Shown here piece after piece: positions 1-51,366 of a stretch of DNA of 64,000 nucleotides (position 1 is its first letter; each line of letters begins with the position of its first letter). The position numbers and the translations under genes are program-made. The notes beneath the pieces are model-generated. The model was not told the origin of the DNA, did no database searches, and saw only the letters and a list, made by a program, of their open reading frames with translations. The stretch comes from Actinomycetota bacterium (GTDB lineage Bacteria > Actinomycetota > UBA4738 > HRBIN12). The stretch spans positions 41,662-105,661 of the forward strand of contig VAYU01000026.1 in the NCBI GenBank assembly GCA_005884925.1, given 5' to 3'.

Positions 1-835
1 GGATCGGGAAGTCCGGGAAGTGGACCTGCTTCAGACCGAGATCGAACGTGCACCGCTCGGCGACCTCGAGCGTCGCATCGCAGAGGTCGGGGCGTTCGGT
101 GAACAGCGCGCGCATCTCGGCCGGTGGCTTCAGCCATCCCTCCGCGTTCGTGCGGCTCACGTTGCTGGATGCGACCGGCACGATCGCCCGCATGCACTCG
201 AGCGCGTCGGCGAGGAACGCATCGTCGGGCGTGAGGTACCGAACGGGGTTCGTCGCGACGGCGACGGCGTCGAGCTTCTCCGCGAACCGGAGCATCGTCC
301 GGATCTCGGCGGCCGAACCGGCCTCCAGACGGTGTTCGACGGCGACGACGCACCGATCGGCACCGAAGGCTTCGCGGAACGGCGCGGCCAGCCGAGTGGC
401 GGCGTCGGTGCGACCGGCGACGGCGAGCCTGCCGGGATGCGACCGCGGGCCCAGCAGGACGGTCATCCCGGCGGCGTGCGCACAGATCTGCTCGACCGCG
501 ACCCACGGATCCCCCCGCTCGCCCAACAGCTGCGCGTCGGTGAGGAGACGGCAGAGGTTCGCGTACCCGGTGTCGTCCTCGGCCACCAGGACGACGTGCG
601 CATCGCGAGGTGGTGGGGCGGGCGCACGCACGGTGAGGGAAGCGCCGAGGATGGGCTTCACACCGTTGCGTTGACACCCCGAGACGAACCGGGCGGCCCC
701 GTAGAGGCCGTCGCGATCGGTCATCGCGACCGCAGGCATCCCCAGCCCCGCGGCCTGCTCGGCCAGCTGCTCCGGGGCGAACGCTCCCTCCTTCAGCGAG
801 AAGTAGGAGCGAACATCGAGGTGCACGAAGGACAT
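1..835 (-). CDS. dnaE2: DnaE2-type (error-prone) DNA polymerase III alpha subunit, N-terminal part
   Basis: The minus frame stays open from an ATG at 835 to the window edge, so only about 278 N-terminal residues are present; the gene is missing from the ORF track because it has no stop here. The product begins FVHLDVRSYFSLKEGAF and contains AMTDRDGLYGAARF, the PHP domain of C-family polymerases. The usual HVHS metal residues read DVRS, so the PHP site looks degenerate. C-family alpha subunits polymerise DNA; the DnaE2/ImuC branch does translesion synthesis after damage. I chose DnaE2 over replicative DnaE1 because of the perfect LexA box just upstream and the nearby DUF6504 gene. The catalytic palm lies outside the window, so the subtype is inferred. 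Confidence 0.8.
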   Translation of the reverse strand, partial: MSFVHLDVRSYFSLKEGAFAPEQLAEQAAGLGMPAVAMTDRDGLYGAARFVSGCQRNGVKPILGASLTVRAPAPPPRDAHVVLVAEDDTGYANLCRLLTDAQLLGERGDPWVAVEQICAHAAGMTVLLGPRSHPGRLAVAGRTDAATRLAAPFREAFGADRCVVAVEHRLEAGSAAEIRTMLRFAEKLDAVAVATNPVRYLTPDDAFLADALECMRAIVPVASSNVSRTNAEGWLKPPAEMRALFTERPDLCDATLEVAERCTFDLGLKQVHFPDFPI

Positions 836-855
836 CGGAGGGCCCGTCTCGAAGG

Positions 856-871
856 TCGAACGTATGTTCGA
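856..871. promoter_or_regulatory. LexA (SOS) box between dnaE2 and udgX
   Basis: TCGAACGTATGTTCGA is a perfect match to the actinobacterial SOS box TCGAAC-N4-GTTCGA. It lies 20 bases upstream of the dnaE2 start (minus) and about 80 bases upstream of the udgX start (plus), so one LexA dimer could repress both divergent genes. Confidence 0.85.
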
Positions 872-953
872 GTCTGAATCCTCGGGCCATATCCGTCAAG
901 ACATCCCTCAAGCTGCGTTCCCGGTCCGATCGAACCGGGTAGGACCTTCCTGG

Positions 954-1589
954 ATGTCCGAGTACTCCGCAGACGCGTTCCTTCCTCAGGATCGGTCCCT
1001 GGATTCCCTCGCCGAGGCCGTCCAGAGCTGTCAAGGCTGCGACCTGTATCGCGACGCGACGCAGGCCGTCTTCGGGGAGGGATCGGGGCGCGCCCTCGCG
1101 ATGCTCATCGGCGAGCAACCGGGCGACCGCGAGGACGTGGAGGGCCACCCGTTCGTCGGGCCGGCCGGCGGCATCCTCGACCGCGCCTTGGAGGATGCGG
1201 GGATCGATCGCGCCGACGTCTACGTGACCAACCTGGTCAAGCACTTCCGGTGGAAGCCCGCACCACGAGGCAAGCGCCGGATCCACCGGAAACCCGACCT
1301 GCGGGAACAGCTCGCGTGCCGGCCGTGGCTGGACGCCGAGCTCGAACAGGTGCGGCCGACGGTGGTGGTGTGCCTCGGCGCGACGGCGGCGCAAGCTCTC
1401 CTGGGGCGGTCGTTCCGGGTCACGCAGGATCGAGGCCGGTTCGTCGAGTCGCCGCTCGCTCCCTTCGTGATGGCGACCGTGCACCCCTCATCGATCCTGC
1501 GCGCACCGGACGACGCACGTGAGGAAGCGATGCGGGCGTTCGTCGCCGACCTCAGGAAGGTCGCGAAGGTAGTGCGCCGAGCTGCCTGA
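954..1589 (+). CDS. udgX: UdgX-type uracil-DNA glycosylase (forms covalent uracil-DNA adduct)
   Basis: A 211-residue family-4-like uracil-DNA glycosylase. Visible motifs are GEQPGD (about residue 53), GHPFVGPAG, the insert KRRIHRKP (His at residue 111) and VHPSS near the C terminus. The KRRIH loop defines UdgX; in the Mycobacterium smegmatis enzyme the His of this loop bonds covalently to the sugar after uracil excision. CQGC and LACRPW supply cysteines expected for the Fe-S cluster. The ATG at 954 has AGGA nine bases upstream; the longer track start at 864 falls inside the LexA box and is unlikely. The SOS box at 856-871 suggests damage induction together with dnaE2. Confidence 0.9.
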   Translation: MSEYSADAFLPQDRSLDSLAEAVQSCQGCDLYRDATQAVFGEGSGRALAMLIGEQPGDREDVEGHPFVGPAGGILDRALEDAGIDRADVYVTNLVKHFRWKPAPRGKRRIHRKPDLREQLACRPWLDAELEQVRPTVVVCLGATAAQALLGRSFRVTQDRGRFVESPLAPFVMATVHPSSILRAPDDAREEAMRAFVADLRKVAKVVRRAA

Positions 1590-1946: not shown

Positions 1947-1999
1947 GTTGAAGGCGAATGTACGCCCCACCTCCGGCATCCGTCAAGACCGGTTGGGGC

Positions 2000-49644: not shown

Positions 49645-49674
49645 TTGACGACCGAACACGTGTTCGGATACGGT
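49645..49674 (+). promoter_or_regulatory. SOS promoter: LexA box between -35 and -10
   Basis: TTGACG at 49645-49650, an 18-base spacer and TACGGT at 49669-49674 form a promoter. The spacer holds CCGAACACGTGTTCGG (49652-49667), a fully palindromic LexA-type box. A bound repressor would block RNA polymerase directly. Confidence 0.8.
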
Positions 49675-49710: not shown

Positions 49711-51366
49711 ATGCTCCTCGAGCCGCTGCAGTGCACGTTGGCCGACGGTGTGAAGCTCTCCGAGGTCACGTTCGTGGTGGTGGACCTCGAGACCACCGGG
49801 GGCTCACCGACCGACCATGCGATCACCGAGATCGGGGCCGTCACCTACCGGGGCGGGGAGCGCCTGTCCGCCTTCCAGTCCCTCGTGGATCCGCGGCAGC
49901 CGATCCCTCCGTACGTCGCGCATCTGACCGGGATCGACGACCTGCTCGTGACGGGCGCACCGGAGATCCACCACGTCCTTCCGAGCTTCCTCGAGTTCGC
50001 GCGCGGCGCGATCTTCGTCGGGCACAACGCGTCGTTCGACTTCGGCTTCCTGAACGCCAACCTGCTGCGCCTGGACTACGACCCCCTGGAGGGGCCGCCG
50101 ATCTGCACCGCCAGGCTCGCCAGGCGCGTCGTGTGGCCGGACGTACCGAACGTGCGGCTCGCGACGCTGGCCCGGTACTTCCGGACGCGCACGATCCCGG
50201 TGCACCGCGCCCTCGCCGACGCCGAGGCCACCGCCGAGGTGCTCAACGGTCTCATCGAGCTCGGCGGCCGGTTGGGGATCACCTCGCTCGGCGACCTCCG
50301 CGAGGCGTGCACCGCACGAGGGCGACCGAACTTCGGGAAGATCCGCCTGGCCGACCTGCTTCCCCGGTCCCCCGGCGTGTACCTCTTCGAGGATCGGAGC
50401 GGGAGGGTGCTGTACGTGGGCAAGGCCGTCGACCTCCGCGCCCGCGTGCGGTCCTACTTCTACGGCGATGAGCGCAAGAAGGTGCAGGATCTCCTCGGCG
50501 CCGTGCAGCACGTCCGCGGCATCCCGACGCCGAACGGGGAAGCCGAGGCACTCGTGCTGGAGGCCCGGCTCATCGCCCGCCACGAACCGCCCTTCAACGC
50601 CCACGGCAAGCGATGGCGGCGCTACGCGTACGTCAAGATCGACCCGGCGGAGGCCTGGCCCAGACTCAAGGTGGTCCGGACAGCATCCGCCGACGACGGA
50701 TGTAGCTACCTCGGCCCGTTCTCCTCCTCCGCAGGGGCGCGGCAGGCGAAGGATGCGATCGAAGACGTCTTCCGCATCCGCCGATGTACGAGGTCGATGG
50801 GGGTGCGGACCCGCTTCGCCCCCTGTGCCCTCGCCGACATGGGGCGGTGCCTCGCACCGTGCGACGGAAGGACCGGCTCGGAAGGCTACGGCGAGCTCGT
50901 GGGCACACTCGTGTCGGCCCTGGGCGAACCCGCCGATCTCCTGGCGAAGCTCGAGGCGCGGATGGACGGCTTGGCCGCGCACGAGCGGTTCGAGGAAGCC
51001 GCGCTCGCCCGTGATCGCCTCCGGTCGGTCGCGGGGTCGCTCCGGCGACTCCGGATCGACCGGTGGCTCACGGCCGGGCGGCTGATCCTCCGAGGAGCCG
51101 CGGGCGAGCGGCTCGAGCTGATCGGGGGGGCGCTCGCGCGGGGCGGCGAGCCGGCGCCGGAGCCGATCGGATCGCCCGTCCCGCGCGAGCGCGCCGACGA
51201 GCTCGCGGCGATCCGTTCGTGGATCAGCCGTCATCCGACCCGGGTCGAGCTGTGCGAGGTTCCTCCGTCGGAGCCCGTCGACGGAGGGGCGGCGTTGGCG
51301 CGTATCCTGAGCGCGCTGCGCGAGAGCGGCCGCACACCGGGCGGCCGTCCGAAAGGCGGCCGGTAA
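49711..51366 (+). CDS. DEDDh exonuclease-UvrC/Cho-like endonuclease fusion
   Basis: A 551-residue repair protein. Residues 1-190 are a DnaQ-like 3'-5' exonuclease (VVDLETTGG, HNASFDFGFLN and HRALADAEAT carry the DEDDh residues). Residues 225-305 are a GIY-YIG nuclease as in UvrC/Cho (GVYLFEDRSGRVLYVGKAVDL). A cysteine region (RRCTRSMG, CALADMGRCLAPCDG) and a UvrB-binding UVR helix (ERFEEAALARDRL) follow. The UvrC RNase-H-like 5'-incision domain is absent. Similar fusions occur in mycobacteria. The SOS promoter fits with E. coli Cho, which is also LexA-controlled. GGAGG precedes ATG 49711. Confidence 0.93.
   Translation: MLLEPLQCTLADGVKLSEVTFVVVDLETTGGSPTDHAITEIGAVTYRGGERLSAFQSLVDPRQPIPPYVAHLTGIDDLLVTGAPEIHHVLPSFLEFARGAIFVGHNASFDFGFLNANLLRLDYDPLEGPPICTARLARRVVWPDVPNVRLATLARYFRTRTIPVHRALADAEATAEVLNGLIELGGRLGITSLGDLREACTARGRPNFGKIRLADLLPRSPGVYLFEDRSGRVLYVGKAVDLRARVRSYFYGDERKKVQDLLGAVQHVRGIPTPNGEAEALVLEARLIARHEPPFNAHGKRWRRYAYVKIDPAEAWPRLKVVRTASADDGCSYLGPFSSSAGARQAKDAIEDVFRIRRCTRSMGVRTRFAPCALADMGRCLAPCDGRTGSEGYGELVGTLVSALGEPADLLAKLEARMDGLAAHERFEEAALARDRLRSVAGSLRRLRIDRWLTAGRLILRGAAGERLELIGGALARGGEPAPEPIGSPVPRERADELAAIRSWISRHPTRVELCEVPPSEPVDGGAALARILSALRESGRTPGGRPKGGR

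Follow-up and report, generated by a model that had tools for sequence, protein, structure and literature searches.

The short gap between the divergent dnaE2 and udgX genes raises the question of whether a single regulatory site controls both an error-prone polymerase and a uracil-DNA glycosylase that bonds covalently to DNA, and whether that glycosylase acts in mutagenic repair. The window analysed here is a 64,000-nt stretch (G000:C25:41662-105661) of the genome under study, G000, which belongs to the phylum Actinomycetota and is a draft assembly of 2.70 Mb in 112 contigs that is 92% complete. Within it, the start of dnaE2 on the minus strand and the start of udgX on the plus strand are 118 bp apart (836-953). 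As the initial annotation had reported, a perfect LexA box, TCGAACGTATGTTCGA, lies in this gap at 856-871. The ATG of dnaE2 is 20 bp away from it and that of udgX 82 bp. Under a first-order Markov model, TCGAACN4GTTCGA is expected 0.010 times per 64 kb, 1.6e-5 times per 119-bp gap and 0.43 times per genome. The box is identical in the congeners G107 and G235, which together with G000 make up the genus within a 17-genome family comparison, and it has the form expected of the actinobacterial LexA/SOS regulon, a palindromic CGAACN4GTTCG operator near a promoter. On these sequence grounds, we regard 856-871 as a real LexA operator.

The two genes that flank this operator can be assigned with some precision. 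The window holds the first 278 codons of the dnaE2-type gene (1-835, minus strand, ATG at 835; Pfam PHP, DNA_pol3_alpha, finger, HHH_6 and OB). The gene leaves the window and is complete at L018:11144-14497, where it encodes 1117 aa and is followed by dinB. G000 encodes another DnaE (C25:5191-7704) with 35% identity to the dnaE2 product, which is thus the second DnaE of the genome. The best NCBIfam model for this product is the error-prone DNA polymerase (790 bits, under the cut-off of 939), with the replicative model close at 762 bits, and the assignment to DnaE2 is based on that best model together with the second-copy status, the LexA box and the dinB/ImuB-C context. The DinB-type protein encoded next to it, one of two Y-family genes in G000, carries the catalytic motifs HVDLDAFYASVE and SLDEAFLDV, with its catalytic acids intact, and ends in a RecA-NT-like tail (IERRFGRGS).

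The plus-strand gene (954-1589, 211 aa) is, by all its sequence features, a bona fide UdgX. Its product scores 262 bits against TIGR03914 (cut-off 190) and matches the Mycobacterium smegmatis UdgX structures at an E value of about 1e-68, with GKRRIH aligned. Motif A reads GEQPGD, so that it is of the GEQPG and not the GE(A/G)PG type, and the histidine of the cross-linking KRRIH R-loop (H111) is invariant in 22 homologues. An earlier start at 864 was rejected: it falls within the box itself, and alignments with homologues begin only around residue 35 of the longer open reading frame, which makes ATG 954 the likely start. G000 also has a separate, ordinary family-4 UDG (L288), with GEAPG and without KRRIH. 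This second enzyme may cover routine excision and leave UdgX free for a special role, an arrangement that fits the non-routine function suggested in the initial annotation. Separately, an N-terminal UDG-like stretch of a 1142-residue putative DNA polymerase (PDB 9qhs_A) matches UdgX at 2e-6.

The box between dnaE2 and udgX is not the only one at this locus. A second LexA box, TCGAACATATGTTCGG, lies at 1930-1945, 56 bp upstream of the ATG of a minus-strand gene that the initial annotation had left unmentioned (1628-1873, 81 aa). This gene encodes a DUF6504 protein (PF20114, 2e-13), present in G000 as one standalone copy. By hhalign, the DUF6504 profile matches the C-terminus of acidobacterial ImuB with 95.7% probability over 81 columns, identifying it as a standalone ImuB-C; homology to mycobacterial ImuB2 was not detected. 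The predicted structure is an all-beta fold (pLDDT 92), and a fold search with the ImuB-C model returned no significant PDB match, which agrees with the published picture of ImuB-C as all-beta and lacking relatives in the PDB (PMC12926913). A putative sigma-70-like promoter, TTGACG-18-TACATT (1957-1986, minus strand), matches at 9 of 12 positions, against 0.0 expected in shuffles. Among 30 actinobacterial DUF6504 loci, the exact box CGAACN4GTTCG occurs within 400 bp upstream in 24, against 0.92 expected; the effect is large, and since related genomes were counted separately the P value is indicative only. For two of the six loci without the box (L230, L235), truncation of the contig led the scan to the wrong stretch. 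Since DUF6504 is an ImuB-C so regularly preceded by a box, we identify the locus with the putative SOS mutasome already known from Actinobacteria, DnaE2-PolY-[ImuB-C], here with udgX placed between its imuB-C and dnaE2 genes. The LexA box on nearly all examined actinobacterial copies of standalone ImuB-C is a firmer by-product of this work. On the opposite strand, a FomD/DUF402-family gene (1958-2662) begins 13 bp past the second box and could share it.

For these boxes to function, the organism must have a working LexA, and the absence of LexA from the genome had been named at the outset as grounds for giving up joint control. The genome-wide motif scan that had been recommended finds 20 exact-core palindromic sites in G000, against 7.7 expected under a Markov model fitted to the window. 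Some of them lie upstream of recA, ruvC and the genes for an SplB-like radical SAM protein, a DUF222-HNH protein and a UvrD-like helicase. In the window, another exact-core box, CCGAACACGTGTTCGG (49652-49667), precedes a plus-strand gene for an exonuclease with a GIY-YIG (Cho-like) part (about 49711-51366). The lexA gene is present and has two boxes of its own, the second near-perfect. Its frame is broken in the G000 assembly (C49:23506-24079; L019:3507-4080), where 29 nt that G107 and G235 have are missing between the DNA-binding and peptidase domains. Taken at face value, this break would mean that LexA is non-functional, the boxes unoccupied and dnaE2 and udgX constitutively on. We consider this very improbable. 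The assembly is a draft in many contigs, lexA is in one unbroken frame in 16/16 other family genomes (the G268 copy being cut by a contig end), and the boxes of G000 are intact; the break is therefore more likely an assembly error or a strain variant than a real lexA-null state. Apart from it, the set of boxes has the composition of a typical, coherent SOS regulon.

Which of the divergent genes does the operator serve? On the dnaE2 side, a putative promoter (871-899, minus strand) consists of TTGACG (899-894) and CAGACT (876-871), 17 nt apart, with the -10 hexamer abutting the box. This promoter scored under threshold in a consensus promoter scan, and both hexamers are kept in G107 and G235 at a spacing of 17-18 nt. 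Given the position of the box relative to these conserved hexamers, repression of dnaE2-dinB is the expected outcome. For udgX, no promoter was recognised; a block directly upstream of its start is conserved between congeners and could hold one. It is possible, though the less probable reading, that the operator belongs to dnaE2-dinB only, that udgX was inserted in the opposite orientation between DUF6504 and dnaE2 with a constitutive promoter of its own in the 82 bp that separate its ATG from the box, and that the apparent co-control is an accident of adjacency. Set against this is the size of the gap, which is short enough for bound LexA to affect both promoters.

Comparison with relatives bears on the same choice. 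In 3/3 genomes of the genus, udgX and dnaE2 diverge around the same box (udgX of G235 is cut by the contig end). Other family members have DUF6504 followed by dnaE2 on one strand, an order from which udgX appears to have been inserted between imuB-C and dnaE2. In these relatives the box stands before DUF6504, before dnaE2 or before both; each of the 14 family genomes checked has the exact box 19-35 bp ahead of the ATG of dnaE2, ahead of a DUF6504 gene lying shortly upstream, or at both places. Retention of the box where udgX is missing from the locus is what an operator for dnaE2 alone would predict. The same is true of the family relative G074 (L091), in which a YCII/sigma-factor pair precedes udgX and about 2 kb separate it from the dnaE2 box; the box has remained with dnaE2, udgX having none. 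In G050, G225 and G139, too, udgX is without an exact box.

A survey of 127 distinct UdgX loci, drawn from many phyla, places the arrangement in a wider setting. An exact box occurs within 700 bp upstream in 6 of them, against 0.94 expected (P 4e-4, a value that ignores relatedness, the six loci falling in about three lineages). The other 121 have none, as would also be the case if the operator were for dnaE2 only. With one mismatch allowed, 9 of the 127 loci have a box, against 6.8 expected, which is no enrichment, and the LexA motifs of Alphaproteobacteria and Verrucomicrobia are no commoner than background ahead of UdgX genes. A shared box as a general rule for UdgX is thus rejected, and the rarity of the box means that SOS control is not a general property of this enzyme. 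Conserved adjacency of dnaE2 and udgX, for which a survey had been called for, is rejected as well: only 5/127 UdgX loci have a DnaE match within 5 kb. At L074, a divergent glyoxalase-like gene separates the two genes. A gene that looks DUF72-like by its sequence is a commoner neighbor than dnaE2, lying within 1.5 kb of udgX at nine loci (L060, L064, L070, L071, L076, L122, L157, L170, L175).

Outside the family, udgX comes after DUF6504 in three genomes (L063, L080 and L172, the last an Egibacteraceae MAG), and a perfect box precedes the pair. This is a second actinobacterial lineage with an independent udgX-DUF6504 tandem. If the link between udgX and the mutasome genes were accidental, it would have to be so twice, which argues against co-control as a single accident. 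The joint SOS control proposed in the initial annotation thus survives in part. The presence of lexA, the regulon, the conservation of the box in the genus and the second lineage speak for it; the tie of the box to the dnaE2 promoter, the unrecognised udgX promoter and the behavior of G074 speak against. The box clearly serves the polymerase, and it probably, though not certainly, serves the trapping enzyme too. Shared SOS control of dnaE2 and udgX is likely in this lineage and specific to it.

We therefore favor, with a probability of about 60%, a reading in which LexA cleavage releases dnaE2-dinB, DUF6504 and udgX together. On the dnaE2-dinB promoter, bound LexA would cover the -10/+1 region; in a gap of just 118 bp it would also hinder divergent udgX transcription. 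Upon damage, RecA-driven cleavage of LexA would free these genes, DUF6504 from its own box. DnaE2, the active DinB-type polymerase with its RecA-NT-like tail and ImuB-C would then form an ImuA-less mutasome, of a type already proposed for Actinobacteria. UdgX would excise uracil and remain covalently bound at the abasic site, and during the SOS response it would shield abasic sites in single-stranded gaps against cleavage until recombination or bypass. Both the repression of udgX by LexA and a role for UdgX in mutagenic repair are inferred. The most specific form of the idea, that UdgX is an SOS-induced partner of the ImuA-less DnaE2/DinB/ImuB-C mutasome and converts uracils in gapped or damaged DNA to covalently shielded abasic sites, which escape cleavage and are kept until they are bypassed or recombined, is a tentative one, and we think it doubtful as it stands.

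It has also to be asked whether UdgX simply replaces SRAP (YedK/HMCES), the SOS-linked cross-linker of abasic sites. SRAP is absent from 17/17 family genomes, and SRAP genes adjoin ImuB-C and DinB in SOS operons (PMC3765255). Over 397 actinobacterial genomes, however, UdgX and SRAP are independent (22/49 vs 151/348, Fisher P 0.88), and most family members have neither; so weakened, replacement of SRAP seems improbable. UdgX is in use as a tool for uracil mapping and base editing. Its cellular role is still described as largely unknown (PMC10359453), and the genomic link of udgX to an SOS mutasome offers a concrete and cheap test.

Several known systems come close to the proposed arrangement. 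M. smegmatis UdgX shares the KRRIH R-loop and the GEQPG and HPSS motifs with the present enzyme; it is proposed to protect abasic sites during stress, and the text describing it (PMC10359453) does not connect it with SOS, LexA or translesion synthesis. No paper naming UdgX together with dnaE2 was found in our literature search, nor was DUF6504 found under that name. An SOS-regulated COG1573-COG4277 UDG/radical-SAM operon is known from Bacteroidetes, Verrucomicrobia and Alphaproteobacteria, and its authors link the UDG to error-prone polymerases (PMC8565304). As is probable here, a family-4-like UDG is under LexA, a likeness at the level of the UDG family, whether or not those enzymes are of the cross-linking UdgX type; there, however, the UDG is paired with a COG4277 gene and is not divergent from dnaE2.

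On the polymerase side, LexA control of dnaE2-dinP has been demonstrated in Streptomyces venezuelae, where the boxes are bound and the operon is induced (PMC9380542). In both organisms a dinB-type gene comes after dnaE2, and the LexA boxes ahead of the pair share one consensus, but ImuB-C and UDG go unmentioned in that study, as do the words "uracil" and "glycosylase". The present locus departs from the canonical ImuA-ImuB-DnaE2 mutasome in that the Y-family protein at dnaE2 is catalytically intact and ImuB-C occurs only as standalone DUF6504, in a comparison that covered the Y-family and DUF6504 genes of G000. ImuA-less mutasomes with standalone ImuB-C have been published (PMC3765255, PMC6511836, PMC12926913, PMC8072749). 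Another known system, at L265, likewise has ImuB-C, a Y-family protein and DnaE2 under LexA, but in one operon with lexA, with an inactive ImuY and without udgX. Among the closest are the putative actinobacterial DnaE2-[ImuB-C]-PolY-RecA mutasome (PMC12926913, whose text mentions neither UDG nor uracil) and the ImuB-C/PolY/DnaE2 variants (PMC6511836), which share with the present locus DnaE2, standalone ImuB-C and a Y-family polymerase whose catalytic acids are intact and whose tail is RecA-NT-like. What sets the present locus apart is udgX, which stands on the opposite strand in between imuB-C and dnaE2. LexA-controlled dnaE2-dinP, ImuA-less mutasomes and SOS-controlled COG1573 UDGs are thus already known; the placing of udgX in the mutasome locus is the part without a precedent in the literature searched.
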